From Armigeres subalbatus (lineage: Eukaryota; Arthropoda; Insecta; Diptera; Culicidae), in the NCBI RefSeq assembly GCF_024139115.2, contig NC_085141.1:381193278-381257277 (forward strand): 64,000 bases of DNA, given 5' to 3'. The notes beneath the pieces were generated by a model. It was not told the origin of the DNA. It made no database searches and was given only the letters and a program-made list of their open reading frames with translations. How positions within the stretch are numbered: the stretch's first letter is position 1; every line of letters starts with the position of its first letter. Below are positions 2,661-61,459 of the stretch, in pieces. The translations under genes were made by a program, and so were the position numbers.

Positions 2661-3530
2661 TTGCGCAGGCCCAATAAGCCGCCTGTAAAAACAATTATTA
2701 CGAACGACATAGAAGATAATACGACTCGATACAATCGGCAACGACCTAGGCGACGAATAAAGGATCACGATTGGAAGCTTGGGTCATGGAACTGCAAGTC
2801 GCTAGGCTTCGCAGGTTGCGATAGGATAATCTACGATGAATTACATCCCCGATACTTCGATGTCGTAGCGCTGCAGGAAATCTGCTGGACAGGACAGAAA
2901 GTGTGGAAAAGCGGGCATCGAGCGGCTACCTTCTACCAAAGCTGTGGCACCACCAACGAGCTGGGAACCGGCTTCATAGTGCTGGGAAAGATGCGCCAAC
3001 GCGTGATTGGGTGGCAGCCAATCAACGCAAGGATGTGCAAGCAGAGGATAAAAGGCCGTTTCTTCAACTATAGCATCATCAACGTGCACTGCCCACACGA
3101 AGGGAGATTCGACGACGAGAAAGAAGCGTTCTATGCGCAGCTGGAGCAGACATACGATGGATGCCCACTGCGGGACGTCAAAATCGTCATCGGTGACATG
3201 AACGCTTAGGTAGGAAGGGAGGAAATGTACAGACCGGTCATCGGACCGGAAAGTCTGCATACCGTATCGAACGACAACGGCCAACGATGCATAAACTTTG
3301 CAGCCTCCCGCGGAATGGTAGTCCGAATCACTTTCTTCCCCCGCAAGAATATCCACAAGGCCACATGGAAATCACCTAATCAAGTAACGGAAAACCAAAT
3401 CGACCACGTTCTAATCGACGGTAAATTCTTCTCCGACATCACGAACGTACGCACTTACCGCAGTGCGAATATTGAATCCGACCACTACCTCGTCGCAGTA
3501 TGTCTGTCGGAGTCGTCCGCCGCGGCTTAA
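2661..3530 (+). pseudogene. LINE apurinic-type endonuclease domain (5' part of dead polyprotein)
   Basis: Encodes the exonuclease/endonuclease/phosphatase-fold nickase that opens the genomic target for reverse transcription. Visible motifs in order: WNCKSL near residue 43 (catalytic Asn), VALQEICWTG (catalytic Glu), GDMNA near the first stop (Asp/Asn pair), and SDHY near the end (Ser-Asp-His triad). The frame is cut by TAG at 3207-3209, directly after GDMNA, and resumes in the same frame as VGREEMYRP, so this is a simple nonsense change. It closes at 3528-3530 after SDHYLVAVCL, where the reading frame moves to that of the RT part, indicating a frameshift. There is no strong start; the Met near 2661 is only the first available. 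Confidence 0.9.
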
Positions 3531-6188
3531 CATTGGGCGGCTACAAGATGGTAGACTAGCCCAAGACTACGCGCAGCAGCTGGAAGTGGCACTCCCAACG
3601 GAAGAGCAGCTAGGCGCAGCATCTCTTGAAGATGGCTAGAGAGATATTCGACCCGCCATTGGAAGCACCGCAACCGCTGCACTAGGCACGGTGGCTCCGG
3701 ATCAGAGAAACGACTGGTATGACGGCGAATGTGAGCAGATAGTTGAGGAGAAGAATGCAGCATGGGCGAGATTGCTGCAACACCGCACGAGGGCGAACGA
3801 GGCACGATACAAACGGGCGCAGAACAGACAAAACTCGATTTTCCGGAGGAAAAAGCGCCAGCAGGAAGATCGAGACCGTGAAGAGACGGAGGAACTGTAC
3901 CGCGCTAATAACACACGAAAGTTCTATGAGAAGTTGAACCGTTCACGTAAGGGCCACGTGCCACAGCCCGATATGTGTAAGGACATAAACGGGAACCTTC
4001 TTACGAACGAGCGTGAGGTGATCCAAAGGTGGCGGCAGCACTACGAAGAGCACCTGAATGGCGATATGACAGACAACGGTGGCGGTATAGTAATGAACCT
4101 AGTAGCACGCGTGCAGGACATGCGACTTCCGGCTCCGAATCTCCAGGAAATCCAGGAGGAGATCGGCCGGCTGAAAAACAACAAAGCCCCTGGAGTTGAC
4201 CAACTACCAGGAGAGCTGTTTAAACACGGTGGTGAAGCACTGGCTAGAGCGCTGCATTGGGTGATTACCAAGGTTTGGGAGGATGAGGTTCTGCCGCAGG
4301 AGTGGATGGAAGGTGTCGTGTGTCCCATCTACAAAAAGGGCGATAAGCTGGATTGTAGCAACTACCGCGCAATCACATTGCTGAACGCCGCCTACAAGGT
4401 ACTCTCCCAAACTTTATGCCGCCGATTAACACCAATTGCAAGAGAGTTCGTGGGGCAGTACCAGGCGGGATTTAGGGGTGAACGCTCTACCACAGACCAG
4501 GTGTTCGCCATACGTCAGGTATTGCAGAAATGCCGCGAATACAACGTGCCCACACATCATCTATTTATCGACTTCAAAGCCGCATATGATACAATCGATC
4601 GGGACCAGCTATGGCAGCTAATGCACGAAAACGGATTTCCGGATAAACTGATACGGTTGATCAAGGCGACGATGGATCGGGTGATGTGCGTAGTTCGAGT
4701 TTCAAGGGCATTCTCGAGTCCCTTCGAAACCCATAGAGGGTTACGGCAAGGTAATGGTCTTTCGTGTCTGCTATTCAACATCGCTTTGGAGGGAGTAATA
4801 CGAAGGGCAGGGATTGACACGAGTGGTACGATTTTCACGAAGTCCGTCCAGTTATTTGGTTTCGCCGACGACATTGATATCATGGCACGTAACTTTGAGA
4901 GGATGGAGGAAGCCTACATCAGACTGAAAAGCGAAGCTAAACGGATTGGACTAGTCATCAACACGTCGAAGACGAAGTACATGATAGGAAGAGGCTCAAG
5001 AGAGGTCAATGTGAGCCACCCACCACGAGTTTCTATCGGTGGTGACGAAATCGAGGTGGTTGAAGAATTCGTGTACTTGGGCTCACTGGTGACCGCCGAT
5101 AACGATACCAGCAGAGAAATTCGGAGACGCATAGTGGCTGGAAATCGTACGTACTTTGGACTCCGCAAGACGCTTCGATCGAATAGAGTTCGCCGCCGTA
5201 CCAAACTGACTATCTACAAAACGCTTATAAGACCGGTAGTTCTCTACGGACACGAGACCTGGACGATGCTCGTGGAGTTTTCGAAAGGAAAGTGTTGCGT
5301 ACCGTCAACTGGGGGGAAGATGATCATTGAGGTGAAGATGATCATTTGATGTGTCAGTCAAAAGTGCCAAATTTTTTTATGAAACGGTAGTCAACAATAT
5401 TCTCCGTTCAAGTAATGTTACCGCTAGGTAGAAATCCGAGTTTTTCGATTATAATCATGAAAATGTATTTTGTGGAAGAAAGAGAGAGATAGCCATAAAT
5501 GACGCTATTTCCGTTTCAAATATTGACTTCGTAGACTTCTTTACGTAGTAAATTCAACATTCATACAAATAACCTAGTGTATTTTGACTACTAGGTCATA
5601 ATTATTTTAGTAGAGCTGTCTTGATCAATTTCACCCCAAACCAGATTACTCAAAAAATGTGTGATAATTTAATTTATTTTAATAAATGCGAATGCATTTC
5701 AGAAAACTAAAGTTGTTGATTATTGCAACGTATAGCAGTACATGTTTTGAAAATATTTGTTTTGATTTAAAATGTAAACACACATTGTTATTGCATGTTT
5801 TGTCTTAAAAATGATCATCTTCCCCCCAGTTGACGGTACCATCTATGGTGGGTTGCAGATGGCGGACGGTACATGGAGGAGGCGAATGAACCACGAGTTG
5901 CATCAGCTGTTGGGAGAACCATCCATCGTTCACACCGCGAAAATCGGAAGACTGCGGTGGGCCGGGCACGTAGCCAGAATGTCGGACAGTAATCCGGTGA
6001 AAATGGTTCTCGACAACGATCCGACGGAAACAAGAAGGCGAGGTGCACAGCGGGCAAGGTGGATCGATCAGGTGGAGGACGACTTGCGGACCCTCCGCAG
6101 ACTGCGTGGTTGGCGAAGTGCAGCCATGAACCGAGCTGAATGGAGAAGTCTTTTATGTGCAGCACAGGCCACTCCGGCCTTAGTCTGA
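3531..6188 (+). pseudogene. LINE reverse transcriptase domain (3' part of dead polyprotein, MITE-interrupted)
   Basis: The frame enters at about 3535, carries a TAG at 3637-3639, is open at 3691-5301, and resumes after the MITE at 5837-6188. RT landmarks: the NNKAPGVDQLPGELFK block near 4180, CPIYKKGDKLDCSNYRAI (palm), HHLFIDFKAAYDTID (first catalytic Asp, near 4555), RGLRQGNGLSCLLFN, and the active-site FADDIDI at 4861-4881. The C-terminal part contains YGHETWTM and, beyond the MITE, WRRRMNHELHQLLGEPSI and RRRGAQRARWIDQVEDDL. Before MITE entry the two halves were contiguous (…VLRTI|YGGLQ…). The domain would copy the element RNA onto nicked DNA. This copy cannot make an intact protein. Confidence 0.93.
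5302..5836. mobile_element. 535-bp MITE nested in the RT gene, TA target duplication
   Basis: The ends are near-perfect inverted repeats of ~27 bp starting CCGTCAACTGGGGGGAAGAT at 5302 and ending in the reverse complement at 5836. TA is duplicated at 5300-5301 and 5837-5838; the palindrome GTAC also fits, so a 4-bp duplication cannot be excluded. Removing the element and one TA restores the RT reading frame across the junction, which fixes the boundaries. The motif GAAGATGATCATT is repeated in tandem at the left end. The interior is AT-rich with no coding capacity. A TA duplication suggests mobilisation by a Tc1/mariner-like or similar transposase. Confidence 0.9.
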
Positions 6189-12132: not shown

Positions 12133-14890
12133 CAGCGGTTCTCAACCTGGGGTACATGTACCCCTGGGGGTACCTTCGCCACGCCCAGGGGGTACCTCGG
12201 ACAAAAATGCATAAAGGCGGATTTTAATCAGTTTTAATCAAGACAACTTATTGACAAAGTTTTGACATATGTATATTTTTTTTTTTTCAAAACTTTAATG
12301 TGCGTGGCGATCAGTAACTAAAGATTATTGAATCATTCTCTCCACAACCACCAAAAATGGATGAAGGGCTGTTGGATAAAAAATCAAAAGGACAGAACAA
12401 CGAATAAACAAATTGTAGAAATCTTCTGTAAAATCTACCTGATGGACACAAAATGTTACATGATATGTTAAGAATATGCTTCTGAACTAAAATTTAGAGT
12501 CTACACATTCAGAAGCATCAATTTGAGAGACATGAAGGTTTTTTTTTCGAAAAGACCAGTTGCTTCGTTGCAAAAGGATTTAATGCCTCCTTCTACGCTT
12601 CTCGAAAGCCTCATTATAAGCAGCTCGGAGGACTCCTTTCAAAAGGTTCGGAAACCTACTTTCAAGAGGTTCGAAAACCTACTTTCAAGAGGTTCGGAAA
12701 CCTACTTTCAAGAGGTTCAGAGGCCTCCTTTTAAGAGGCCCGGGCCCCCTTTTTAGAAGCCTGGTAGCCATTTTTCAAAAGCCTCGGATACCTTCTTTCA
12801 AGAGGCTGGGAAGCCTACTTTCAATAGCTCGGAAACCTCTTTTAGAGTGTTTCGGAAACCTCTTTCCAAGTGGTTCGAAGCTTTCAAGAGGCCCAGAAGC
12901 CTCCTTTCAAGAGGCCCGGAAGCCTCCTTTCAAGAGGCCCGGAAGCCTCCTTTCAAGAGGCTCGGAAGCCTCCTTTCAAGAGGCTCGGAAGCCTCCTTTC
13001 AAGAGGCTCGGAAGCCTCCTTCAAGAGGCTCGGAAGCCTCCTTTCAAGAGGCTCGGAAGCCTCCTTTCAAGAGGCTCGGAAGCCTCCTTTCAAGAGGCTC
13101 GGAAGCCTCCTTTCAAGAGGCTCGGAAGCCTCCTTTCAAGAGGCTCGGAAGCCTCCTTTCAAGAGGCTCGGAAGCCTCCTTTCAAGAGGCTCAGAAGCCT
13201 CCTTTCAAGAGGCTCAGAAGCCTCCTTTCAAGAGGCTCAGAAGCCTCCTTTCAAGAGGCTCGGAAGCCTCCTTTCAAGAGGCTCGGAAGCCTCCTTTCAA
13301 GAGGCTCGGAAGCCTCCTTTCAAGAGGCTCAGAAGCCTCCTTTCAAGAGGCTCAGAAGCCTCCTTTCAAGAGGCCCGGAAGCCTCCTTTCAAGAGGCTCG
13401 GAAGCCTCCTTTCAAGAGGCTCGGAAGCCTCCTCTCTGAAGGCCCGGAAGCCTCCTTTCAAGAGGCCCGGAAGCCTCCTTTCAAGAGGCCCGGAAGCCTC
13501 CTTTCAAGAGGCCCGGAAGCCTCCTTTCAAGAGGCCCGGAAGCCTCCTTTCAAGAGGCCAGGAAGCCTCCTTTCAAGAGGCCAGGAAGCCTCCTTTCAAG
13601 AGGCCCGGAAGCCTCCTTTCAAGAGGCCCGGAAGCCTCCTTTCAAGAGGCCCGGAAGCCTCCTTTCAAGAGGCCCGGAAGCCTCCTTTCAAGAGGCCCGG
13701 AAGCCTCCTTTCAAGAGGCCAGAAGCCTCCTTTCAAGAGGCCCGAAGCCTCCTTTCAAGAGGCCAGAAGCCTCCTTTCAAGAGGCCCGAAGCCTCCTTTC
13801 AAGAGGCCAGGAAGCCTCCTTTCAAAAGGCCCGGAAGCCTCCTTTCAAAGGCCCGGAAGCCCCCCTTCAAGAGGCCCGGAACCCCCCTTCAAGAGGCCCG
13901 AAGCCTCCTTTCAAGAGGCCCGAAGCCTCCTTTCAAGAGGCCCGGAAGCCTCCTTTCAAGAGGCCCGGAAAGCCTCCTTTCAAGAGGCCCGGAAGCCTCC
14001 TTTCAAGAGGCCCGGAAGCCTCCTTTCAAGAGGCCCGGAAGCCTCCTTTCAAGAGGCCCGGAAGCCTCCTTTCAAGAGGCCCGGAAGCCTCCTTTCAAGA
14101 GGCCCGGAAGCCTCCTTTCAAGAGGCCCGGAAGCCTCCTTTCAAGAGGCCCGGAAGCCTCCTTTCAAGAGGCCAGGAAGCCTCCTTTCAAGAGGCCCGGA
14201 AGCCTCCTTTCAAGAGGCCCGGAAGCCTCCTTTCAAGAGGCCCGTAATCCTCCTTTCAAGAGGCCCGGAAGCCTCCTTTCAAGAGGCCCGGAAGCCTCCT
14301 TTCAAGAGGCCCGGAAGCCTCCTTTCAAGAGGCCCGGAAGCCTCCTTTCAAGAGGCCCGGAAGCCTCCTTTCAAGAGGCCCGGAAACCTTCTTTCGAGAT
14401 GCTCGAAAGCCTCTCTTCAAGGGGCTCGGAATTCATCTTTCGAGATGATTGGAAGCCAACGTTCAAGAGGCCCGGAAGCCTCCTTTCAAGAGGCCCGGAA
14501 GCTTCCTTTCAAAATTCCCGGAAGCTTCCTTTCAAGAAGCCCGTAAACCTTCTGTCGAGATGCTCATAAGCCTCTCTTCAAGGGGCTTGGAATTCATCTT
14601 TCGAGATGATTGGAAGCCAACGTTCATGAGGCTCAGAAGCGTCCTTCAATGATGCTTATAAGCTTACTGGTTCGAAAGCCACTTTTCAAGAGGCTCAATA
14701 GCTTCTCTTCAAGATCTCGATATAATGAAAATTTCAGCAAACTCTATGGATAGCAATATATCCCGTTTATTTACAGTATAATGTTTAATATATCTTACAC
14801 TTATTTTCATTTACAGCAAAAGTAGGGGGTACCTCAATTGATGAAAAAGTTCGAAGGGGTACCTTTCAAGAAAAAGGTTGAGAACCGCTG
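12133..14890. mobile_element. Non-autonomous hAT-type element housing a giant minisatellite
   Basis: The inverted ends CAGCGGTTCTCAACCT (12133) and AGGTTGAGAACCGCTG (ending 14890) match the widespread hAT signature CAGNGGTTCTCAACCT. The 8-bp target duplication TTTCATAC / TTTTATAC (12125-12132, 14891-14898) differs at one base and has the length expected for hAT. Both ends carry a subterminal GGGGGTACC-type motif (12160-12195 and 14823-14865). There is no transposase; the interior is the 23-bp repeat array described separately. About three quarters of the element is repeat. Confidence 0.9.
12628..14710. repeat. 23-bp minisatellite, ~65 core units with degenerate edges
   Basis: The unit is AAGCCTCCTTTCAAGAGGCC plus CGG, 23 bp. 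The core runs from about 12886 to 14390, with diverged units outside. The first part (about 12958-13370) is mostly the GGCTCGG/GGCTCAG variant and the second (about 13440-14390) the GGCCCGG variant, so at least two amplification phases are visible. Each unit can form a small hairpin, GCCTC-CTTTCAA-GAGGC. Because 23 is not a multiple of 3, three units give a 23-residue period in every frame, which creates a spurious 466-codon frame at 12847-14247. A seed-like CCTTTCAAGAAAAAGG sits just inside the right terminus of the host hAT element. Confidence 0.95.
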
Positions 14891-15249: not shown

Positions 15250-17109
15250 GGCTACTTCTCTTCGCGCACGACGTCTAGTACAGCAAGCTTGACCACCGGC
15301 CGTTCATACACTCCAGCAGTTTTACGAACTGTTGCTGATCGAACCTCTCCATCTTGACTGGGAATTGCTATGATTAAGAGATGAGCCAGCCCTGGGCTGA
15401 AAATCTCTTTAATAAAGATAAAAAAAAAAAAAAAATTGCTATGATCTTCCCCTTTGACCAGCAATTGCGAGGAAACTTCTGATCAGCAATGATGACTATG
15501 TCCCCAACACTGGCCGCATACTGTCTGAGTACCACTTCATCCTTCTTGTTATCTCCGGCAAATATTCTAGTAGCCAACGCTTCCAAAACTGGTTGGCGAT
15601 CATTTGTGAAGAACGCCAGCATTGACGTACTATGGAATTAGAATTCTCGAGCGTAGCTGGCGGTTTCACTCCAATAGAGCTTCCAAGGAGAATGTGGTTA
15701 GGGGTTAAAGCTGGAGCTGAACCGGCCTCTATCGGAATATGCGTAAGTGGCGTGGAATTCAGCGTTTTCTCGATTACGATCAAGGTATTGCGCAAAACTT
15801 CGTCTGATGGTCGATGCGGGAGTTTCAATGACCTCAACGAAATCTTCACGCAGCGAATTAAACGCTCCCAGCTCCCACCCACGTGTGGAGTCAAAGGCGG
15901 ATTAAACGACCAGGTAGTCTCGGTGCTGGTGAATTCGTTCATAAGAGCTCCATCATCTAGTTCTTCCATAGCACCTTTTAATTCTCCGTTAGTCCTTACG
16001 AAATTGGTACCACGGTCGCAATAAATGTACCGCGGTAAACCACGTCGAGCAATTAGGTTGCGTATGACCATCACACAGGATTGCGTGTTGAGCGAGTGAG
16101 CTACTTCAATGTGTACTGCTCGAGTGGCCATACAAGTGGCCAGCATTCCCCAGCGTTTCTCAACTGGTCTACAGAATGCCGCTTACCTTGCACCAGGCAG
16201 ATCCGCCATTATTGAAGGCGAGGGCGTAGCTCGCTCGTTTTAGCAACGTTGGCAGTTTCTCCTCACGTTGGCACAGCAAACGCGAACTCGTGGGATGGAG
16301 TACTACTCACGTAATTCGTTTACCACGGTTTCTTGGTTGAGGTGGTGGTATTTAATGTGATAGTGGGATATGATCAAAGTGGTAACGTGGTGTGGTGGTC
16401 ACGGGGAAGGATTATCAGGTTTTCGCCTCTTCGCTGATGAAGACACAGTTGGACGTCCGGCCGCCCATCCGTAGAACTTTGTTGCCGTCTAAAAACGGGG
16501 TTGATTTGAAAATTGGGCTACTTCTTGGTACACGCTTGTGTTGTTCTATAGCGGTTTCCTCCGGAAAGTTTTGCTGCTGAGCTTCTCGTATAATGCTTGC
16601 CTCTGCGTTTTGTAGCTCTTCCATATGCAAAGGACTTGACCGAATTGGTTGATTTTACCTTTTTCGGCGACAGTTTGCCAAAAAACGAAATAGTAGTCCA
16701 ACTACGAACTACTGGCGTCGACACACGTATGTAGCTCTATTTGTTCTCCTGGGATCATCTGACTACAGTAGCATCGTGGTATTTGAACATTTTCAACCTC
16801 AGGTAACACGCGTAGCCAAGTTTGCCATTTCACAAACAGAAGACCATCCATCGCCACACCTCTTGTAGAAGTATCTTCAAGAAAATGAGAAAGTGTGCGA
16901 TTAATCCGAGTGGATCGAAGATTGACATCTGCACACGCAGTATATCTCGTTTTGTCAGTCTACGCTCTTCAGATAACAGTGCTTCATCGTATCGCGTCCA
17001 GCCTACTTTGAAGGTGATCTTTTCGGTTTCCGTGGCTGGGTTCGATTCCCGGTACCGGTCTAGACAATTTTCGTATTGGAAATTGCCTCGACTTCCCTGG
17101 ACATAAAAG
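15250..17109 (-). pseudogene. BEL/Pao pol: RT C-terminus, RNase H/linker and integrase
   Basis: Minus-strand order from 17106 down. The RT/connection region reads KRDILRVQMSIFDPLGLIAH and then ILLQEVWRWM (16822-17000). The linker contains NKVLRMGGRTSNC (16415-16630). The integrase core (15496-16146) has CMATRAVHIEVAHSLNTQSC, YIYCDRGTNFV (catalytic Asp) and NPPLTPHVGGSWERLIRCVK. The C-terminal end reads VYERPVVKLAVLDV (15252-15362). In BEL/Pao elements this polyprotein copies and inserts the element. Frames change near 16146 and 16400, a 59-bp retroposon sits at 15375-15433, and the RT core upstream is missing, so it is dead. Confidence 0.88.
15363..15445 (+). mobile_element. 59-bp retroposed cassette with perfect 12-bp target duplication
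   Basis: AATTGCTATGAT flanks the insert on both sides (15363-15374 and 15434-15445). The insert is TAAGAGATGAGCC, then a small hairpin AGCCCTGGGCT, then CTCTTTAATAAAGAT and poly-A. It interrupts the BEL coding sequence, and removing it restores the frame. It is the same kind of unit as 60220-60279, so this is a very short LINE/SINE 3'-end module copied by a LINE. Confidence 0.85.
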
Positions 17110-22835: not shown

Positions 22836-22998
22836 AATTACTATGTCTGAAACTTGATTATGCATATGTACAACATGTGATAGATTTAGTTCGGAAAAGG
22901 TATTGGAGGGTAACCGCCCCTTCGGTGGGGTTTGATCCCACGACCCCAGTTCGCATGACAGGTGCTTTCCCTACTAAGCTACGAAGGACCTCCGTCGT
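22836..22998 (-). mobile_element. tRNA-derived SINE-like unit, minus orientation
   Basis: On the minus strand the string TAGCTTAGTAGGGAAAGCAC resembles a Pol III A box and D arm. Then comes TGTCATGCGAACTGGGG (anticodon-arm-like) and GTGGGATCAAACCCCAC (T-arm/B-box-like). The 3' part runs through GGTTACCCTCCAATACC to a conserved end, CATAATCAAGTTTCAGACAT. Its inverted partner is at 23219-23353. It is not a functional tRNA, since the B box is altered and the flanking stems mismatch. Confidence 0.65.
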
Positions 22999-23218
22999 CC
23001 ACCGTCGGGTTGGGATCTGACGACCAAACTGGCACAACCTCACACAACCCTACTTCATTGAGCGCCGTTGCTGATGAAGCAAGTGTGTAGGAGCCGAACA
23101 ATACTAAATACTCATCCTACTTGGTTGACATGTGTACAAAAATACATTTGAGAGAGTTAGTTCTGAAAATGTATTGCGAGAGATCGGCTGGTACCTGGTG
23201 CTGGGAATTTGGTTTCAT

Positions 23219-23353
23219 CAGTACCCGCTAAGCTGCGGTGGACGACGGAGGTCGTGGGATCAAACCCCACCGAAGGGGCGGTTACCCTCCAATACCTTTT
23301 CCGAACTAAATCTATCACATGTTGTACATATGCATAATCAAGTTTCAGACATA
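23219..23353 (+). mobile_element. tRNA-derived SINE-like unit, plus orientation (partner)
   Basis: It reads GCTAAGCTGCGGTGGACGAC, GTGGGATCAAACCCCACCG, GGTTACCCTCCAATACC and the shared end CATAATCAAGTTTCAGACAT. Over the last ~125 bp it is nearly identical to the reverse complement of 22836-22960, while its 5' A-box part is more diverged. The pair makes a stem of about 130 bp around a 0.24-kb loop. Confidence 0.65.
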
Positions 23354-23870
23354 GTATAAATAATGTTAATTTCTCTTTAATTTTGTCAATCAGACAATAC
23401 ACGCGCAATTTGAATTTCTCAATTGGCTTATTTCATTAACCAGAAAAAAGTGTAGTTGAACATGAACATACTAAGTTTTGATTAGTTTTATTAAATGCAT
23501 TCTAACATTATTTTCAATGAAAAAGAGTGTAAATTAGGCTTTGAAAATACTCAACAAATCACAGGGCCTAAAAACAGTATTGTTCGATCTGGTATTAATT
23601 TTTTTTCCGTTTGAACTAGGAGAAGTTTGCTTACAATCACCATTTATTTGTAAATCTTCTTAAAGATTTTTTTATAAAATAGGCTCATTCAACATCTTTT
23701 GGTCAGTCGTTTAAGAGAAATCGCATTTGTGTAATAATAACACGCACTACAAAAATGATGATGCGTGACAGCAGCATATTGATGTATTTATGAAGTCATC
23801 ATCCTGGTATGATCGCGGTTGTGGTATTGATAGTAGTCTGGCGATCTCGATGTACAGTCGTCGGGAGAGG

Positions 23871-27236: not shown

Positions 27237-28913
27237 TATCTATCCTTTTCTCGTTGTGCAGAAGTTCATGATGTTTTCTGGCACAGCTGTCCTTACCACA
27301 AACCTTGGTGATGGTGATGGTGATTCTAGATGTGCATTGTGGAATCTAGTACCTTTCCTAGCAGGATGCGTTTCGTTTCTTACACACTTCGGCTCTTGAA
27401 TGCCTGGGATTGTCACCGTGCTGGCAGCCTCATCCATTGAATAAATCCAGTTTCCAAAGGTGACCAGATTTACTCTAGGAAGCATCTGATGATATTTGGC
27501 CCAATCTAACTTGATTGTCGGAGGCAGTCTACTAACCAGCTGATGTAATAACGACACGTTATACATATGCTCTTCTAGCTGGCACGCATTCATTGTAGCG
27601 CAGAAATTTTGGACTTCAACTGCGAAATCCATTATGGTTTCAAGCCTATCTTTTCTCAAGGGTGGCAACACCGTTGTTTTGGTTATTAACGAATGGATAA
27701 TAGTTTCCGGCTGCCCAAACCGCATACGAAGTGTCGAAATGATTCCTCCCACGTTCGAAGGATGCATCAAAAGGCTTTTGACGGCATCGTAGGCTTTTCC
27801 TGGTAAGCACTTTTGTAGCCTTACCGCATTTTTTGCATCCGTAAAACCACACATATAGCAGTTGTATTAGTGTAAGATGCGAAGAATATAGGTCACTCTT
27901 CTGGCTTTCCGGAAAAGTTTGGAAGATCCTTCGATATAGCTTGGCGAGCCGCCAGCTGAGTCTTCGTGAGCGACGCAATTTCGCCGGAAAAGAATCTTTG
28001 GTCTCCTTCTGACTGCTCAATTGGAGGTATTGCGTAGTTCTCCGCCTCAGTTACTCCTACCGTACGATGTTGGGATCTGTGCCCCTCATTACCCAGCGCT
28101 CGTGCGTAATAATGCTGTGCTTGCATCGATGGTTGTACTTCTTCGTTGATGCGTCGATTTCCATGACTATATGCCGAAGGAATATTCGGTCGAATAACCA
28201 CACTGGAGACTTCTCTCAAGGAAAACGTCCGCCCTGCGCCAACAACGGTTTCATGATCCTGCCCCACCGAACGATGATGGTTTGTTGTTACCCTCGGATG
28301 AACAACCGTCGCTTGATTTTGCGTAGAATGCTGGGACGGATTTAAAGTGTCGGGATGAATTGAGGTGTGTTCTTGTTGACCATTGTTGTCATGCAACCAT
28401 TCGTTTACACGGCTCATACTGCAACTAGACGGTGGAACCCTTTTCACTGGCCATTTCTTCCAGGAGGGCGTACTTTCGCTCCAGAAACTCTTTCGCTAGA
28501 CTTTGCTCTTCCTATAACTTCTGCATTTGTAGTTCCAGCAACTTGCGGGCAGCCCTACGAGATGACGTTTGCGACAGATTGTTTTCAGATCTCTTGTCGT
28601 CGCGATCCTTGCCACCATGCTCGGCTCCTGTTACTTCTGAGTTGATCTTATCCACGGTGTTTAACAACCTTCGGTTGTTTCGGATGTGGTGCTGCTTTAC
28701 TGCTCTTCGGTTCACCAACTGGTTGAAGATTTTTGCTGGAAGTTGAACCCTCTCGTCGGACCCATGCAGCAGATACGCATTTTGGACGAAACGAAAATTA
28801 TAAAATGTTGGTTTCGTATCAATTAAAACACAAGAATTTGGTGCTGTTTTACGGTCTATTATAATTTTCCTGATGGAGGTAATTTGTACAAAAATTGTGT
28901 TAATTGTAATCAT
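27237..28913 (-). pseudogene. BEL/Pao gag
   Basis: Minus-strand frames at 28512-28913, 27893-28447 and 27240-27854 cover it. The N-terminal part is a charged, coiled-coil-like segment (SSRRAARKLLELQMQKL, then EEQSLAKEFLERKYALLEEM after a stop at 28509-28511). Next comes a low-complexity H/Q/S-rich linker, then LAARQAISKDLPNFSGKPEE, which is the typical start of the BEL/DUF1759 gag domain. It continues with VRLQKCLPGKAYDAVKSLLM and STLRMRFGQPETIIHSLI. Near 27265 another frame reads CARKHHELLHNE, the zinc-knuckle-like motif. Gag forms the virus-like particle of the retrotransposon. Multiple stops and shifts make it inactive. Confidence 0.88.
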
Positions 28914-34794: not shown

Positions 34795-34827
34795 CCCATA
34801 ACCCGCACCCAACTATTTTTTAAATTT

Positions 34828-35448
34828 AGCTTGAGCTTGAGCTTGATTGACTGCTCGTAGTAGCTACTCCATTATGACCAGATCAGCTGTTCTTGCACAG
34901 GGAACCAACAGATGTTTGCTTGGGACTAGCACACATCTTCAATGTACAAGAACTGGTGATCTCATTTGTAAGGTCATACTGGCGCCTGCCACGTCAGAAT
35001 GCAAGTCAATGTAGGGAAGGGGGAGGAAATGATGATGCAATCACTCGCCCACTGCAAGCCGAATATACCTCTGCACTTGCCACGAGTTCATGTGGAATTT
35101 GTTGGAATTTCTGGGTTAGGTTGGAGAGGCAGAGGTCCGTCTTGGTTAACGAGCTGCCAATGTGATAGATAGGAGAAGGTAGCTGATGGAATTTCTAATT
35201 GGATGTAGGAAACGAGCTCTATAAGTTCATTTCCAATTCTAGCAGATTACTGTTAGAATACTCAAATTGAAGGTATAGGAATAGTAATGGAAAACGGTAT
35301 GGAAGTTCATTTCCAGTTCTAGCGATTGCTAGAACATGAGAAATAAAGAGAAAGATACAAAGTAGGAGAATGGAACGGACCTGGGATTGAATTCACGACC
35401 TCCTGCGTATGAGGCAGAAGCAGTAGCCATATGACTACCAAGCCCGCC
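34828..35448 (-). mobile_element. tRNA-headed SINE, copy 2
   Basis: On the minus strand the head reads GGGCTTGGTAGTCATATGGC, TACTGCTTCTGCCTCATACG, CAGGAGGTCGTGAATTCAAT and CCCAGG. Its layout is A box, anticodon arm with a CAT-centred loop, and B box (mutated GAATTCAATCC). The body contains CTAGCAATCGCTAGAACTGG, AAATTCCATCAGC and GCAGTGGGCGAGTGATTGC, and ends (CAAGCT)n at 34828-34845. It is collinear with copy 1 at 57017-57646 through the whole length. Its 5' end joins the satellite directly, with only about four extra bases (AGGC) at the junction. Confidence 0.85.
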
Positions 35449-38400
35449 TCGAAACATGAGAGATCACGCACTGAACTAATTATTTTTATTACCGGCCGCG
35501 CAATGCAGAACACAATAATTCGGCCGACCGCGCGATCGTTCTGCTGTCCGAAACATGAGAGATCACGCACTGAACTGATTATTTTTATTACCGGCCGCGC
35601 AATACAGAACACAATATTTCGTCCGACCACGCGATCATTCTGCTGTCCGAAACAAGAGAGATCACGCACTGAACTGATTATTTTTATTACCGGCCGCGCA
35701 ATACAGAACACAATATTTCGTCCGACCACGCGATCGTTCTGCTGTCCGAAACAAGAGAGATCACGCACTGAACTGATTATTTTTATTTCCGGCCGCGCAA
35801 TGCAGAACACAATAATTCGGCCGACCGCGCGATCGTTCTGCTGTCCGAAACATGAGAGATCACGCACTGAACTGATTATTTTTATTACCGGCCGCGCAAT
35901 ACAGAACACAATATTTCGTCCGACCACGCGATCATTCTGCTGTCCGAAACAAGAGAGATCACGCACTGAACTGATTATTTTATTACCGGCCGCGCAGTAC
36001 AGAACACAATATTTCGTCCGACCACGCGATCGTTCTGCTGTCCGAAACAAGAGATCACGCACTGAACTGATTATTTTTATTACCGGCCGCGCAATGCAGA
36101 ACACAATAATTCGGCCGACCGCGCGATCGTTCTGCTGTCCGAAACATGAGAGATCACGCACTGAACTGATTATTTTTATTACCGGCCGCGCAATACAGAA
36201 CACAATATTTCGTCCGACCACGCGATCATTCTGCTGTCCGAAACAAGAGAGATCACGCACTGAACTGATTATTTTTATTACCGGCCGCGCAATGCAGAAC
36301 ACAATAATTCGGCCGACCGCGCGATCGTTCTGCTGTCCGAAACATGAGAGATCACGCACTGAACTGATTATTTTTATTACCGGCCGCGCAATGCAGAACA
36401 CAATAATTCGGCCGACCGCGCGATCGTTCTGCTGTCCGAAACATGAGAGATCACGCACTGAACTGATTATTTTATTACCGGCCGCGCAATACAGAACACA
36501 ATATTTCGTCCGACCACGCGATCATTCTGCTGTCCGAAACAAGAGAGATCACGCACTGAACTGATTATTTTTATTACCGGCCGCGCAATGCAGAACACAA
36601 TAATTCGGCCGACCGCGCGATCGTTCTGCTGTCCGAAACATGAGAGATCACGCACTGAACTGATTATTTTTATTACCGGCCGCGCAATACAGAACACAAT
36701 ATTTCGTCCGACCACGCGATCGTTCTGCTGTCCGAAACAAGAGAGATCACGCACTGAACTGATTATTTTTATTACTGGCCGCGCAGTACAGAACACAATA
36801 TTTCGTCCGACCACGCGATCGTTCTGCTGTCCGAAACATGAGAGATCGCGCACTGAACTGATTATTTTTATTACCGGCCGCGCAATGCAGAACACAATAA
36901 TTCGGCCGACCGCGCGATCGTTCTGCTGTCCGAAACATGAGAGATCACGCACTGAACTGATTATTTTTATTACCGGCCGCGCAATACAGAACACAATATT
37001 TCGTCCGACCACGCGATCATTCTGCTGTCCGAAACAAGAGAGATCACGCACTGAACTGATTATTTTTATTACCGGCCGCGCAATGCAGAACACAATAATT
37101 CGGCCGACCGCGCGATCGTTCTGCTGTCCGAAACAAGAGAGATCACGCACTGAACTGATTATTTTTATTACCGGCCGCGCAGTACAGAACACAATATTTC
37201 GTCCGACCACGCGATCGTTCTGCTGTCCGAAACATGAGAGATCACGCACTGAACTGATTATTTTTATTACCGGCCGCGCAATGCAGAACACAATAATTCG
37301 GCCGACCGCGCGATCGTTCTGCTGTCCGAAACATGAGAGATCACGCACTGAACTGATTATTTTTATTACCGGCCGCGCAATACAGAACACAATATTTCGT
37401 CCGACCACGCGATCATTCTGCTGTCCGAAACAAGAGAGATCACGCACTGGGCAGAGCGTTGTTATTGGCGGCCGCGCAGTGCACGACGCAATCCTTCGGC
37501 CGACCGCGCGATCGTTCTGCTGTCCGAAACATGAGAGATCACGCACTGAACTGATTATTTTTATTATCGGCCGCGCAATACAGAACACAATATTTCGTCC
37601 GACCACGCGATCATTCTGCTGTCCGAAACAAGAGAGATCACGCACTGAACTGATTATTTTTATTATCGGCCGCGCAATACAGAACACAATAATTCGGCCG
37701 ACCGCGCGATCGTTCTGCTGTCCGAAACAAGAGAGATCACGCACTGAACTGATTATTTTATTATCAGCCGCGCAATGCAGAACACTATAATTCGGCCGAC
37801 CGCGCGATCGTTCTGCTGTCCGAAACATGAGAGATCATGCACTGAACTAATTATTTTTATTACCGGCCGCGCAATACAGAACACAATATTTCGTCCGACC
37901 ACGCGATCGTTCTGCTGTCCGAAACAAGAGAGATCACGCACTGAACTGATTATTTTTATTACCAGCCGCGCAATGCAGAACACAATAATTCGGCCGACCG
38001 CGCGATCGTTCTGCTGTCCGAAACAAGAGAGATCACGCACTGAACTGATTATTTTTATTACCGGCCGCGCAGTACAGAACACAATATTTCGTCCGACCAC
38101 GCGATCGTTCTGCTGTCCGAAACATGAGAGATCACGCACTGAACTGATTATTTTTATTACCGGCCGCGCAATGCAGAACACAATAATTCGGCCGACCGCG
38201 CGATCGTTCTGCTGTCCGAAACATGAGAGATCACGCACTGAACTGATTATTTTTATTACCGGCCGCGCAATGCAGAACACAATAATTCGGCCGACCGCGC
38301 GATCGTTCTGCTGTCCGAAACATGAGAGATCACGCACTGAACTGATTATTTTTATTACCGGCCGCGCAATACAGAACACAATATTTCGTCCGACCACGCG

Positions 38401-41400
38401 ATCGTTCTGCTGTCCGAAACAAGAGAGATCACGCACTGAACTGATTTCTTTTCTTACCGGCCGCGCAATGCAGAACACAATAATTCGGCCGACCGCGCGA
38501 TCGTTCTGCTGTCCGAAACATGAGAGATCACGCACTGAACTGATTATTTTTATTACCGGCCGCGCAATACAGAACACAATATTTCGTCCGACCACGCGAT
38601 CGTTCTGCTGTCCGAAACAAGAGAGATCACGCACTGAACTGATTATTTTTATTACCGGCCGCGCAGTACAGAACACAATATTTCGTCCGACCACGCGATC
38701 GTTCTGCTGTCCGAAACATGAGAGATCACGCACTGAACTGATTATTTTTATTACCGGCCGCGCAATGCAGAACACAATAATTCGGCCGACCGCGCGATCG
38801 TTCTGCTGTCCGAAACATGAGAGATCACGCACTGAACTGATTATTTTTATTACCGGCCGCGCAATGCAGAACACAATAATTCGGCCGACCGCGCGATCGT
38901 TCTGCTGTCCGAAACAAGAGAGATCACGCACTGAACTGATTATTTTTATTACCGGCCGCGCAGTACAGAACACAATATTTCGTCCGACCACGCGGTCGTT
39001 CTGCTGTCCGAAACATGAGAGATCACGCACTGAACTGATTATTTTTATTACCGGCCGCGCAATGCAGAACACAATAATTCGGCCGACCGCGCGATCGTTC
39101 TGCTGTCCGAAACATGAGAGATCACGCACTGAACTGATTATTTTTATTACCGGCCGCGCAATACAGAACACAATATTTCGTCCGACCACGCGATCATTCT
39201 GCTGTCCGAAACAAGAGAGATCACGCACTGAACTGATTATTTTTATTACCGGCCGCGCAATGCAGAACACAATATTTCGTCCGACCGCGCGATCATTCTG
39301 CTGTCCGAAACAAGAGAGATCACGCACTGAACTGATTATTTTTATTACCGGCCGCGCAATGCAGAACAAAATAATTCGGCCGACCGCGCGATCGTTCTGC
39401 TGTCCGAAACATGAGAGATCACGCACTGAACTGATTATTTTTATTACCGGCCGCGCAATGCAGAACACAATAATTCGGCCGACCGCGCGATCGTTCTGCT
39501 GTCCGAAACATGAGAGATCACGCACTGAACTGATTATTTTTATTACCGGCCGCGCAATACAGAACACAATATTTCGTCCGACCACGCGATCATTCTGCTG
39601 TCCGAAACAAGAGAGATCACGCACTGAACTGATTATTTTTATTATCGGCCGCGCAATACAGAACACAATATTTCGTCCGACCACGCGATCGTTCTGCTGT
39701 CCGAAACAAGAGAGATCACGCACTGAACTGATTATTTTTATTACCGGCCGCGCAATGCAGAACACAATAATTCGGCCGACCGCGCGATCGTTCTGCTGTC
39801 CGAAACATGAGAGATCACGCACTGAACTGATTATTTTTATTACCGGCCGCGCAATGCAGAACACAATATTTCGTCCGACCACGCGATCATTCTGCTGTCC
39901 GAAACATAAGAGATCACGCACTGAACTGATTGATTTTATTACCGGCCGCGCAATGCAGAACACAATAATTCGGCCGACCGCGCGATCGTTCTGCTGTCCG
40001 AAACAAGAGAGATCACGCACTGAACTGATTATTTTTATTACCGGCCGCGCAGTACAGAACACAATATTTCGTCCGACCACGCGATCGTTCTGCTGTCCGA
40101 AACATGAGAGATCACGCACTGAACTGATTATTTTTATTACCGGCCGCGCAATGCAGAACACAATAATTCGGCCGACCGCGCGATCGTTCTGCTGTCCGAA
40201 ACATGAGAGATCACGCACTGAACTGATTATTTTTATTACCGGCCGCGCAATGCAGAACACAATAATTCGGCCGACCGCGCGATCGTTCTGCTGTCCGAAA
40301 CATGAGAGATCACGCACTGAACTGATTATTTTTATTACCGGCCGCGCAATACAGAACACAATATTTCGTCCGACCACGCGATCATTCTGCTGTCCGAAAC
40401 AAGAGAGATCACGCACTGAACTGATTATTTTTATTACCGGCCGCGCAATGCAGAACACAATAATTCGGCCGACCGCGCGATCGTTCTGCTGTCCGAAACA
40501 TGAGAGATCACGCACTGAACTGATTATTTTTATTACCGGCCGCGCAATACAGAACACAATATTTCGTCCGACCACGCGATCGTTCTGCTGTCCGAAACAA
40601 GAGAGATCACGCACTGAACTGATTATTTTTATTACCGGCCGCGCAATACAGAACACAATATTTCGTCCGACCACGCGATCGTTCTGCTGTCCGAAACATG
40701 AGAGATCACGCACTGAACTGATTATTTTTATTATCGGCCGCGCAATGCAGAACACAATAATTCGGCCGACCGCGCGATCGTTCTGCTGTCCGAAACAAGA
40801 GAGATCACGCACTGAACTGACGATTACTACCACCGGCCGCGCACTACACAACACCATCGCTCGTCCGACCTCGCGATCGTTCTGCTGTCCGAAACATGAG
40901 AGATCACGCACTGAACTGATTATTTTATTACCGGCCGCGCAATGCAGAACACAATAATTCGGCCGACCGCGCGATCGTTCTGCTGTCCGAAACATGAGAG
41001 ATCACGCACTGAACTGATTATTTTATTACCGGCCGCGCAATACAGAACACAATATTTCGTCCGACCACGCGATCATTCTGCTGTCCGAAACAAGAGAGAT
41101 CACGCACTGAACTGATTATTTTTATTACCGGCCGCGCAATGCAGAACACAATATTTCGTCCGACCGCGCGATCATTCTGCTGTCCGAAACAAGAGAGATC
41201 ACGCACTGAACTGATTATTTTTATTACCGGCCGCGTAATGCAGAACACAATAATTCGGCCGACCGCGCGATCGTTCTGCTGTCCGAAACATGAGAGATCA
41301 CGCACTGAACTGATTATTTTTATTACCGGCCGCGCAATGCAGAACACAATATTTCGTCCGACCGCGCGATCATTCTGCTGTCCGAAACAAGAGAGATCAC

Positions 41401-41509
41401 GCACTGAACTGATTATTTTTATTACCGGCCGCGCAATGCAGAACACAATATTTCGTCCGACCACGCGATCATTCTGCTGTCCGAAACAAGAGAGATCACG
41501 CACTGAACT
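35449..41509 (-). repeat. 99-bp satellite array, ~61 monomers, each with an Inr/DPE-like core promoter
   Basis: The plus-strand monomer contains GAAACATGAGAGATCACGCA, CTGAACTGATTATTTTTATT, ACCGGCCGCGC and CGATCGTTCTGCTGTCC. Two linked variants alternate: AATGCAGAACACAATAATTC…CGACCGCGC followed by CATGAG, and AATACAGAACACAATATTTC…CGACCACGC followed by CAAGAG. This gives a loose 198-bp higher-order period. On the minus strand TCAGTT lies with GGACA at +28 to +32 from its A. Two monomers (37448-37515, 40820-40875) diverge in the half that excludes the GGACA/GATCTCTC block. Because 99 is divisible by 3, both strands stay open for over 1,000 codons, an artefact of the period. Confidence 0.95.
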
Positions 41510-41542
41510 CCCATAACCCGCATCCAACTATTTTTTAAATTT

Positions 41543-42040
41543 AAAATAAAAAATCAGAAATTTTCTGATTTGCTGTAACGTTTGTCGAATTTTGAATAAA
41601 CATCAGGCCAAATGTTCAGGTCGGTTTACGTGTGCAGCACTGTTGATATACCACTATATTGTTTAGAATTTTCCTTCTAGAAAAAAATAGAGACTAAAGA
41701 TTTCCTAAACATTACCGAAGCTAGGAAGCCATGTTAACAAAAACGGGTGCCATTCTATTCTATATATAGCTATCAAAATTGAATATCCGAATTCACTATC
41801 ACCGAATTGAAAATCCATAAATATTGAACAGCCCGTTATGAGTTTGAAATACTAATTAAGTGAATATTATATCAAACAGGAGGATTATCGTTGAAAACAG
41901 GTCCCATGATCTAATTAAATGCGAAACACAGAAAATCATCCATTCCTTTGTGGGAGAAACTGATTTCCCGTTAGTTTCGTCCGAAACTTACTTCTCACGA
42001 GATAAAAGACACTAAATCATCTATCGAGAAGTGCCCTCCT
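41543..42040. other. AT-rich low-copy DNA
   Basis: No repeat or frame recognised downstream of the composite's target duplication. Confidence 0.4.
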
Positions 42041-53550: not shown

Positions 53551-53568
53551 TCAAATATGTCTCCTCCA

Positions 53569-55490
53569 GATTCTGGAGGAGAAGGAAGCAGCGCGGGCGG
53601 TCGCGCTGCAGCAAGGTACCCGGCAGAACGTGGAACGTTATAGACGGAAGCGGAGACAGCAGACCCGCCTTTTTCAGGAGAAGAAACGCCGCCTGGGAGA
53701 AGCGGAGTGCGAGGAGATGGAACAGCTGTGCCGTTCTCAAGATACACGCAAGTTCTATCAGAAGCTCAACGCATCCCGCAAAGGCTTCGTGCCGCGAGCC
53801 GAAATGTGCCGGGATAAGAATGGGAGCATCTTGACGGACGAACGTGTGGTGATCGAAAGGTGGAAGCAGCACTACGAGGAACATCTGAATCACAGGCAGT
53901 GAAAGTCAAGGCAGCGGAGGAGATGACTACGTCAGTTCAGCGAACGATGGAAGCCAACCAGCCCCCACCTTGAGGGAAGTTAAGGATGCCATTCAACAGC
54001 TAAAGACCAATAAAGCAGCTGGTAAGGATGGTATCGGAGCTGAGCTCATCAAGATGGCCCCGGAAAAGCTGGCCACTTGCTTGCTCAAACTGATAGTCAG
54101 AATCTGGGAAACCGAACAGCTACCGGAGGAGTGGAAGGAAGGATGTGCCCCATCTACAAGAAAGGCGACAAACTGGAGTGTGAGAACTTTCGAGCGATCA
54201 CCATCCTTAATGCCGCCTACAAAGTGATATCCCAGATCATTTTCCGTCGTCTGTCACCATTAGTGAACGAGTTCGTGGGAAGTTATCAAGCCGGCTTCGT
54301 TGACGGCCGCTCGACAACGGACCAGATCTTTACTGTACGGCAAATCCTTCAAAAATGCCGTGAATACCAGGTCCCAACGCACCATCTGTTCGTTGATTTC
54401 AAGGCGGCATACGACAGTATAGACCGCGTAGAGCTATGGAAAATTATGGACGAGAACAGCTTTCCTGGGAGGCTTACCAGACTGATCAAAGCAACGGTGG
54501 ATGGTGTGTAAAACTGTGTGAAGATTTCGGGCGAACACTCCAGTTCGTTCGAATCGCGCCGAGGACTAAGACAAGGTGATGGACTTTCGTGCCTGTTGTT
54601 CAACATTGTGCTAGAAGGTGTCATGCGGAGAGCCGGGTGTAACAGCCGGGGTACGATTTTCAACAGATCCAGTCAAATTATTTGCTTCGCGGATGACATG
54701 GACATTGTCGGCCGAACATTTGCAAAGGTGGCAGAACTGTACACCCGCCTGAAACGTGAAGCAACAAAAGTTGGACTGGTGGTGAATGCGTCAAAGACAA
54801 AGTACATGCTTGTGGGCGGAACCGAGCGCGACAGGGCCCGCCTGGGAAGCAGTGTTACGATAGACGGGGATACCTTCGAGGTGGTCGAGGAATTCGTCTA
54901 CCTCGGATCCTTGCTAACGGCTGACAACAACGTTAGTCGTGAAATACGAAGGCGCATCATCTGTGGAAGTCGGGCCTACTACGGGCTCCAGAAGAAACTG
55001 CGGTCGAAAAAGATTCGCCACTGCACCAAATGTGTCATGTACAAGACGCTTATAAGACCGGTTGTCCTCTACGGACATGAAACATGGACAATGCTCGAGG
55101 AGGACTCCAAGCACTCGGAGTATTCGAGAGACGGGTGCTTAGGACCATCTTTGGCGGTTTGCAAGAAGACGGTGTGTGGCGGCGAAGAATGAACCACGAG
55201 CTCACCCAGCTCTACGGCGAACCCAGTATCCAGAAGGTAGCTAAAGCCGATGGGCAGGACATGTTGCAAGAATGCCGGACAGCAACCCTGCAAAGATGGT
55301 GTTCGCTTCCGATCCGGCAGGTACGAGACGGCGTGGAGCGCAGCGAGCGAGATGGGCAGACCAGGTGCAGAACGACTTGGCGAGCGTTGGGCGTATCCGA
55401 GGATGGAGAGATGCGGCCTCGAACCGTGCATTGTGGCGTCAAATTGTTGATTCAGTGTTATCTGTTTAGATGTTAACTAAATAAATGAAT
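53569..55490 (+). pseudogene. 5'-truncated RTE-like LINE, second copy
   Basis: It lacks the endonuclease. It starts within the EN-RT linker (ILEEKEAARAVALQQGTRQN) and covers RT: LKTNKAAGKDGIGAELIKMA near 54000, CPIYKKGDKLECENFRAITI near 54150, HHLFVDFKAAYDSID near 54385, RRGLRQGDGLSCLLFN near 54560, FADDMDI at 54686, YGHETWTML near 55070, and RRRGAQRARWADQVQNDL near 55330. Lesions: frameshifts near 53900-53970, 54145, 55100 and 55265, and a TAA at 54509-54511. The 3' end TAAATAAATGAATGAATG resembles the first copy's. Similar in layout to 2410-6210 but clearly a different lineage. Confidence 0.9.
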
Positions 55491-56994: not shown

Positions 56995-57668
56995 ATTTTC
57001 TGCAACACTGTTTATTACGGGCTTGGTGGTCATATGGCTACCGCTTCTGCCTCATACGCAGGAGGTCGTGGGTTCAATCCCAGGCCCGTTCCATTCTCCT
57101 ACTTTGTATCTTTTCATATATTTCTCATGTTCTAGCAATCGCTAGAACTGGAAATGGGCTTTCATACCATTTCTATCTTCTATCCCCCTATAACTACAAC
57201 TTGATTAGTTCTAGCAGGTAACTGTTAGAATTAGAAATGAGCGAAAAGTTCGTTTCGGCATCGAATTAGAATACTACACCACCCTTTCATTACTACCACA
57301 TTGGCAACCCGTTAACCAAGACGAACCTCTGCCATAAAAACCCTAACCCCAGATTCCAATAAAATTCCACAGGAACTCGTGGCGAGTGCAGAGGTGTTCT
57401 CGGCTTGCAGTGGGCGAGTGACTGCATCATCAATTCCTTCCCATCCCCGATGACCGTGAGGACGTGGCCAGCGCCATTATCGACCTTCCAAAATACTAGA
57501 GCTCTCGGACTGTGCACATTGAGGTTGGAGTGCAAATCCCATGCTTCCATCCATTGGTTCCCTGTGCAATTGCGATTGTTCTAGTCGATCACGGAGTAGC
57601 AACTACGATATGCACGGTCATCATGCTCATGCTCATGCTCATGCTCATTTTCTGCAACACTGTTTATT
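56995..57668 (+). mobile_element. tRNA-headed SINE, copy 1, with 22-bp target duplication
   Basis: The 22-bp flank at 56995-57016 recurs exactly at 57647-57668. The insert is 57017-57646, and the opposite palindrome arm (around 60975) shows the uninterrupted site. The head is cloverleaf-like: GGGCTTG pairs with CAGGCCC over seven bases, the anticodon arm TTCTGC-CTCATAC-GCAGGA has CAT at the anticodon position, and the T-arm region is GTGGGTTCAATCCC. The ~530-bp body contains CTAGCAATCGCTAGAACTGG and GCAGTGGGCGAGTGACTGC, and the tail is (CATGCT)n. It starts precisely at the tRNA head, unlike copy 2 at 34828-41509, which carries the satellite. Confidence 0.92.
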
Positions 57669-60291: not shown

Positions 60292-61459
60292 AAATTGATA
60301 ATTATGGAGGATGAAAGAGAGTTATGAATACCACACAATCGTTACAAGCTACAAAAACAAGCCTATGGTAACCTGATGCAAGTAGGTACAAAAGAAAAAT
60401 ATAATCTGAGAAGCAGCTCCACCAACAAGCTATGTTTAAACGTTACGAAATTGCTCATTTGCCGTTAAGAATAATTGTTTTTTTTTCGCATAGCTGTAAA
60501 AGCAACATCAGTACCGGTACCCACAGTAATTGTAGCTGATTCAAAAAAATATCAACAAGCACTTTCGTCGAATCCGTTCATTTTTGTTTCAGTTTGCGAA
60601 AGACGTGCTAATGTTTAAGGCACTTATTTTGGTCCTATTTTACTTCTGTTGAAAATTGTTCTGCAAATAGTTTGCTATCGAATATAGATCAGCGAAGGAT
60701 ATACGTATCTATTGAGACGAAAAATATAGATGAATTGAAAGGAAGAAGAAACAGTTTTTTTAAACTTATGTATTTTCTGCTAGAACTCACATAAAAAATG
60801 ATGTATTTTTTGACATTTATTTTAAAGAACTATTTTACCCTACACTCCCCTAATGAAAAATTCTGAATTCTAATTTCAACTTAGACAAAAAAGTTTGGAC
60901 AGTTTTCCCCAGATCGGAAAACATCAACTTAAGCAGGGTCAAAATTTGTGCGAACTTTCTTAAGAATAAGCAGTGTTGCAGAAAAATCCGATTTTCTTAG
61001 AAATTCTTGAGTTGGCGCTTCTACATTATATATGAGATGAAAGCTCATTAGTTTCTTAAGTGCCTTACGGGTTTAGTTTTTTATCCTAGATCTGTTGGTG
61101 AAAAATATTCCCTTTGGAAAAACGACCATTTTTTATCGAAAAAGTCAATTTTCTTCTAAAGTAAACAACTTTATAACCCTATTAACCACTTGGTATAAAG
61201 TACTAATTGAGTAGAAAAAACGTGCAAAATTTAAACAAAATCGGTCACTCATTGCCAAAGTTATTGCATTTGTTTGGTTTTGGCGATTTTTGAACAATAA
61301 TTTTTGAAGGGCCGTTTTACCCCACTTCCCCTCAATGAAAAAATTTGAAAATTTGCAAAATGTCTTCTCTTACATATATGAACAAACCCTGAAAATTTCA
61401 TCTAAGTCGGAGAATATCGATACAAGAGGGGGTCGCGCTTCTCGCGAACTGGCTCTTAA

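Follow-up and report, generated by a model that had tools for sequence, protein, structure and literature searches.

How does a tandem array of about 6 kb come to share a single pair of target-site duplications with a short interspersed element (SINE)? The question is raised by a locus in a 64-kb stretch of the Armigeres subalbatus genome (NC_085141.1, positions 381,193,278 to 381,257,277; hereafter the window), which belongs to a 1.336-Gb assembly of 2,076 contigs. A first-pass annotation had read this locus as a satellite array that was retroposed together with a SINE. Our results make it very probable that the locus is a member of a young composite family of non-autonomous retroposons, in which a SINE of the kind transcribed by RNA polymerase III (Pol III) appears to have captured a tandem RNA polymerase II (Pol II) promoter; the array probably grew in place later.

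The direct repeat that surrounds the array and the SINE brackets both, as the first-pass annotation had noted, and does so exactly; it is 34 bp long rather than the 33 bp given there. Its two copies, at 34795–34828 on the 3′ (tail) side of the element and at 41510–41543 on the 5′ side (neither assigned to a strand), differ by one mismatch and pair in a self-BLAST search with E = 2.5e-8. They enclose 6,681 bp and directly adjoin the SINE tail at one end and the last monomer at the other. The first 33 bases of the duplication have no other site in the window within 12 mismatches on either strand. The element lies on the minus strand and, read in that direction, starts with AGTTCAGTG and continues with 61 full monomers, a 28-bp partial monomer (together 35450–41509), a 3-bp join (35447–35449, AGG at this locus), a 618-bp SINE body and a (TCAAGC)3 tail (body and tail, 34829–35446). 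The SINE has a tRNA-like head whose B box, GAATTCAATCC, has lost the canonical G. Fifty-six of the full monomers are 99 bp long, four are 98 bp and one is 96 bp. The space between the duplications is filled by the array and the SINE; the long open frames there are repeats of the 33-codon array unit, and the element has no reading frames of its own of the kind found in long interspersed elements (LINEs). The 99-bp monomer has no BLAST match at E 0.01 elsewhere in the window, the SINE body included. In monomers m7 and m41 (window 40818–40880 and 37445–37510), A/T to G/C changes are clustered in the A/T-rich half, which sets them apart from the other monomers, and these are either truly divergent units or sequence errors.

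Relatives were collected with three queries. With the SINE of the window, the best 40 of 1,738 candidates were scored (98–100% identity), and of the 39 listed copies that lie outside the window, 20 were taken in listing order, two on small contigs being passed over. With the monomer, the best 40 of 112 candidates were scored, which together gave at least 249 matches, all those listed being on one strand; 20 of the ~38 listed array loci, chosen without a match in the SINE search, were read beyond the end of the array. With a second, sister SINE found in the window, the best 40 of 4,330 candidates were scored and the 20 best outside the window used. A sample spread over the genome (20 x 10 kb + 1 kb) yielded two SINE fragments and one 20-bp monomer match, too few to be used. 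The latter, an exact match at 527–546 of locus L014 to the part of the monomer around a motif like the downstream promoter element (DPE), lies inside a different, inverted-repeat-like region and is either a chance hit or a common motif.

The 99-bp monomer lies 5′ of the SINE in 19 of the 20 close SINE relatives, with a later insertion between the two in L029. Resolved duplications of 22–26 bp surround monomers plus SINE in 14 of these 19. The genome check suggested in the first-pass annotation, a search for further monomer–SINE insertions with duplications of their own, thus came out in its favor, and the retroposition of array and SINE as one unit is seen in many independent events. Of the usual marks of tRNA-derived SINEs, the element has dispersed non-coding copies, target duplications and a simple-repeat tail. 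The number of full monomers varies. In the ten arrays that are uninterrupted and complete at the 5′ end, the count is one (L026), two (L025, L028), three (L022, L032, L038), five (L033, L036, L037) or seven (L040); four others are interrupted (L024, L029, L031, L039). Long arrays are found in L082 (~23 monomers), L083 (~21), L084 (~16) and L034 (at least 14), and the window copy with its 61 monomers is the extreme among the copies examined.

From the side of the monomer the picture is the same. Nineteen of the 20 monomer-chosen arrays run directly into the SINE head, and the stretch of the remaining one (L077) ended within the array; a longer stretch from the same place (L085) reaches the SINE head 31 bp past the last monomer start. 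Arrays without a SINE, as an independent satellite would provide, did not occur among these 20; therefore the monomer is not a free satellite within this sample. The idea of a separate satellite caught once, as the first-pass annotation had it, gives way here, the monomers being the 5′ region of the element itself.

Array and SINE are joined in a nearly constant way. The monomer runs to base 28, three bases follow, and then comes CGGGCTTGG; this join could be read in 37 of 40 loci (19/20 SINE-chosen and 18/20 monomer-chosen). The three bases are AAG in 27 of the relatives, AGG in eight, and ATG and AAT in one each. The join of L073 departs slightly from this pattern, and none is seen in L030 or L077. 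Since 35 of the 37 joins are nearly the same, one ancestral fusion was most likely inherited, and the sequences point to a single ancestral joining of monomer and SINE. Mean divergence in the best-match samples is 0.9% among composite copies and 2.6% among sister copies, with 23% between the two groups.

Where does the transcript of such an element begin? Each monomer contains one candidate pair of core promoter motifs, a putative initiator (Inr) TCAGTT whose A+1 is the first base of the unit, and thus the 5′ end of the window array, and a putative DPE, GGACA, at +28 to +32. The array contains 57 such Inr–DPE sites in sense and none in antisense, so that most monomers carry the pair; six sites occur on both strands of the other 57,251 window bases, and the pair appears in 71 of 20,000 sequences made by dinucleotide shuffling of the monomer. 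All these figures are descriptive, because the motif was sought after the sequence had been viewed. The 61 window monomers were compared with 151 monomers from 34 other loci, of which 147 start with AGTT and 143 have GGACA at bases 28–32.

The ends of the insertions fall at the same place. In 14 of the 19 monomer-bearing relatives the insertion begins at monomer base 1, the A+1; the other starts are at base 6 (L023), 35 (L027), 16 (L035) and 18 (L041), and the 5′ end of L034 was outside the stretch examined. Insertions that mostly begin at one monomer base are what a transcript starting in the array and reading through the SINE, as postulated in the first-pass annotation, would be expected to leave. 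The base before the start is G in all 18 base-1 starts (14 relatives, L083–L085 and the window), and the last base of a monomer is C or T in 150 of 151 cases. Among 13 base-1 insertions with a resolved duplication, this G lies outside both duplication and monomer in ten; in the remaining three (window, L025, L033) G is already the last base of the duplication. The extra 5′ G appears to be what copying of an RNA cap leaves, a reading of untemplated 5′ G that is also mentioned for SVA elements in the accessible text of one study (PMC12593883). A lone extra G was seen in none of the 17 sister copies with a duplication found by script; their extra bases are A, AA, TA or ACA, or TGTTG in L059, and seven copies have none. 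With a variable number of 5′ monomers (1 to ~23 in the sampled loci, 61 in the window) and a preferred start base, the composite family has the build of a retroposon with a tandem promoter, and we infer from the motifs and the 5′-end structure that its monomers act as Pol II promoters.

The sister SINE supplies the comparison. Its window copy (57017–57646, plus strand) has no monomers, a canonical B box and a (TCATGC)n tail; it is 78% identical to the composite SINE body and is flanked by its own 22-bp duplication (56995–57016 and 57647–57668, strand not assigned). The repeat that hosts it has a SINE-free paralog at 60965–60985 on the minus strand. Given a monomer-free copy with its own duplication and an empty site, the SINE can therefore move alone. 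No monomers were found within 400 bp upstream of the 20 sister copies, 17 of which have a resolved duplication. Their 5′ ends are exactly ACGGGCTTGG in 15 of 20, begin at the same base with one substitution in L058–L060, and begin two bases later in L051 and L055. These last two, near 119.9 Mb and 119.5 Mb of contig C2, have the same target duplication and flank and are therefore probably related by segmental duplication.

The two groups differ at the B box, which is GGGTTCAATCC in 19 of 21 sister copies and GAATTCAATCC in all 21 composite copies; the AA change is also present in 16 of the 18 readable B boxes of the monomer-chosen loci. ARAGORN calls a tRNA-Met in the window sister copy and nothing in the window composite copy; the Rfam tRNA model gives the two 19.1 and 13.1 bits, both under its 29-bit cut-off. 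The altered B box, the extra G and the start site together argue against Pol III transcription of the composite family. SINEs are usually defined by an internal Pol III promoter, and to judge from its sequence the composite family would fall outside that definition.

If relatives carry few monomers, how did the window copy acquire 61? Its SINE body differs by 0.81% from the composite majority, within the 0.16–0.97% of the other copies, and the element is therefore an ordinary recent member of the family. Elsewhere, C54 is found in 104 and A54 in 41 of 151 monomers; as both types exist outside the window, more than one probably came with the insertion. Other variants are nearly private to the window array: T39 (16/61 vs 1/151 elsewhere), T72 (28/61 vs 5/151), C74 (8/61 vs 0/151), and T39 with T72 (11 monomers vs none). 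The nearest relative of a window monomer lies in its own array in 29 cases, elsewhere in four, and is tied in 28. The longest exact internal repeat is 439 bp, a length reached by three of 100 shuffles of monomer order, and exact sharing with any of 24 other loci extends to at most 229 bp. Near-private variants that have multiplied, together with long internal blocks, favor block duplication within the window copy or its direct lineage. This suggests, without proving it, that most of the 61 monomers arose by local duplication, and the ready-made array of ~6 kb proposed in the first-pass annotation is disfavored by these variants and by the one to seven monomers of the ten uninterrupted relatives. 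Monomer classes X and Y alternate along the array, with 13 adjacent equal pairs where 25.1 are expected (p 0.0004). A search for higher-order structure gave no strong period (lowest lag distance over 30 lags, p 0.041), and the longest repeat in the strings of monomer types is unremarkable, 190 of 500 shuffles reaching its length. A comparison of ages by private changes, 22/5841 in the array and 5/617 in the SINE body, was not significant (p 0.18).

Together, these observations are consistent with a model in which a tRNA-derived SINE captured a tandem 99-bp Pol II promoter monomer. Pol II would start at the Inr of one monomer, and the capped transcript would include the monomers that follow as well as the SINE. 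The 3′ end of the SINE would be recognized by a LINE reverse transcriptase, which would copy the RNA by target-primed reverse transcription, with the cap copied as G. As a start in an upstream monomer retains those downstream, the promoter would survive each round. In the window, several monomers present at insertion probably seeded the array, and duplication of multi-monomer blocks would then have enlarged it. The anatomy of the element and the behavior of known retroposons suggest Pol II initiation, the part played by the LINE enzyme and recognition of the SINE tail. We lean, less firmly than on the nature of the locus, towards a wider history in which the SINE family switched polymerase, the B box being kept at first and then lost, and in which capped RNAs seed promoter-bearing arrays, some of which grow into satellites.

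Several points weigh against this account. One close SINE relative, L030, lacks monomers; its 27-bp duplication contains two mismatches and brings the composite-set loci with a resolved duplication to 15 of 20, and the other five (L023, L032, L034, L035, L038) have no resolvable one. The SINE samples are best matches and so biased to young and close copies, and the monomer matches were all listed on one strand, again among the best 40 of 112 candidates. The promoter motifs were spotted post hoc, and the names Inr and DPE for TCAGTT and GGACA follow a general consensus that we assume to apply. Starts at other monomer bases can follow a G as well: L027 (base 35) has one extra G outside the duplication, and G is also the base before the insertion in L023 and L082 (both base 6) and in L035 (base 16), whereas L041 (base 18) has none. 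Either capped transcripts also start at other points, or the link between the G and the Inr is not a strict one. Base 6 (AGTGCG), at which L023 and L082 begin after a G, may be a second start site. The 58 copies of AATAAA in the window element should impede long read-through. At the B box, L066 and L076 (two of the 18 readable monomer-chosen loci) keep GG, so that Pol III may still have acted in some composite members; both copies may represent an intermediate stage, with the monomers already acquired and the B box yet to decay. As to growth in place, a larger parental array beyond the 34 sampled loci could be the holder of the seemingly local variants. In the long arrays L082–L084 the nearest monomers likewise lie mostly in the same array, and local growth may therefore be general; for L085 they are two in its own array, six elsewhere and six tied.

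How does this account fare against others? That one transcript of ~61 monomers and the SINE was reverse-transcribed once, delivering the whole array, seems unlikely, even though the duplications enclose the entire unit, arrays of ~16–23 monomers exist elsewhere, and PMC12593883 reports SVA insertions as long as 6.7 kb; the one to seven monomers of the ten uninterrupted relatives, the near-private variants multiplied within the array, its long exact internal blocks and the 58 AATAAA motifs all speak against it. It is still less probable that the length of the array is an artefact of assembly and that the real copy has few monomers. Tandem arrays are error-prone in assemblies and two monomers have odd clustered A/T to G/C changes, but the alternation of X and Y and the one-base changes in length resemble real sequence. 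Template switching, by which SINE RNA would be joined to a separate monomer RNA at each reverse transcription, would place the join at the SINE's own 5′ end, where it is indeed found; it is nevertheless very improbable, given that 35 of the 37 relatives with a readable join share the passage from monomer base 28 to AGG or AAG.

Hardly any weight can be given to a pre-existing satellite that was entered by a SINE, with a 33–34-bp repeat that is coincidental or dispersed. The array is long and homogeneous, as this would have it, yet the duplication exactly adjoins both ends, and at many dispersed loci monomers are joined to the SINE head near the same base within different duplications. An independent satellite with an adjacent SINE insertion was ruled out by the joined arrays of the sample and the duplications around both parts. 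A different origin of the monomers, compatible with the composite retroposon that we favor, deserves more attention, although we regard it as tentative: they may be promoter repeats from the 5′ untranslated region (UTR) of the partner LINE, which would make the element a LINE-ended derivative with a tRNA-SINE in its middle. LINE-derived 5′ ends are described for some SINEs, Bov-A2 and MAR4 (available part of PMC3747384), and tandem Pol II promoter monomers for mouse L1 (accessible parts of PMC6454616, PMC9022269). Against this, none of the 20 monomer-chosen arrays lacks the SINE, and no monomer-bearing LINE turned up among the best 40 of 112 candidates, in a search that was not aimed at LINEs.

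Is such an element known from elsewhere? Outside this genome, no relatives were found in plasmids or phages, the exact patterns tried had no match in viral or genome contigs, and two reading frames of the array, searched as proteins, gave no hit up to E 10. No description of a monomer–SINE element was found in the open-access literature, outside which most subscription journals lie. A tRNA-like head and a tandem 3′ tail are features of Feilai, a mosquito tRNA SINE. By description, the composite element also shares these two features with Gecko of Aedes aegypti, whose promoter is listed as tRNA and whose tail is that of I-74_AAe-type LINEs (PMC3747384, text available in part), and differs from it in the damaged B box and a different, putative 5′ promoter.

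The closest parallel to the 5′ region is mouse L1 (L1Md), whose 5′ UTR consists of tandem Pol II promoter monomers, three to four on average in the youngest subfamilies; the start site used in the parent can be read from the 5′ end of a full insertion, and the number of monomers varies (PMC6454616, PMC9022269, as far as their accessible text goes). Both elements combine variable 5′ monomers with 5′ ends clustered near start sites and carry the monomers through retroposition. However, mouse L1 is autonomous and coding and has ~200-bp monomers, whereas the composite element has 99-bp monomers on a non-coding tRNA-SINE and one copy with 61 of them. Promoter activity has been measured in mouse L1, and we infer it in the composite element. 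With the SVA and LAVA elements of apes it shares its non-autonomous nature, tandem repeats joined to a SINE-like part and target duplications; the variable-number tandem repeat (VNTR) of those elements changes length at the DNA level (PMC4432496, PMC12593883, accessible portions). The anatomy is not that of SVA, in which an Alu-like part, an internal VNTR and SINE-R are followed by a poly(A) tail, whereas here the repeats stand at the 5′ end and would hold the start site, and the tail is (TCAAGC)n. SINE-derived satellites of squamates also link SINEs with tandem arrays (PMC10702118, in its available text), but their monomers are pieces of the SINE, whereas neither the SINE body nor any other part of the window matches the composite monomer.

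The window holds further repeats. At 12626–14586, a 23-bp unit is repeated in tandem 86 times, and the array contains long open frames. A perfect 107-bp inverted repeat at 22839–23356 has its arms at 22839–22945 and 23250–23356, the left one overlapping a tRNA-Ala call at 22916–22988. Two related LINE copies with reverse transcriptase frames, ~67% alike in DNA, lie at 2622–5349 and 53567–55192; the former also has an endonuclease frame, and its protein at 3640–5349 has its best named matches in Wyeomyia smithii (71% over 96%) and Aedes albopictus (79% over 78%). At 15496–16182 and 27240–27866, matches to DUF5641 and DUF1759 mark frames that are presumably remnants of BEL/Pao-type retroelements, of which we take these domains to be typical.

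With a sister subfamily that has a canonical B box, a nearly fixed join and possible intermediates, the composite family would allow a switch of polymerase in a retroposon to be put to a direct test. A concrete route from mobile element to satellite DNA also emerges, in which short arrays carrying promoter motifs are sown across the genome and some of them grow where they landed. Were the monomers to fire in vivo, every array would be a dispersed cluster of RNA start sites in the mosquito genome.

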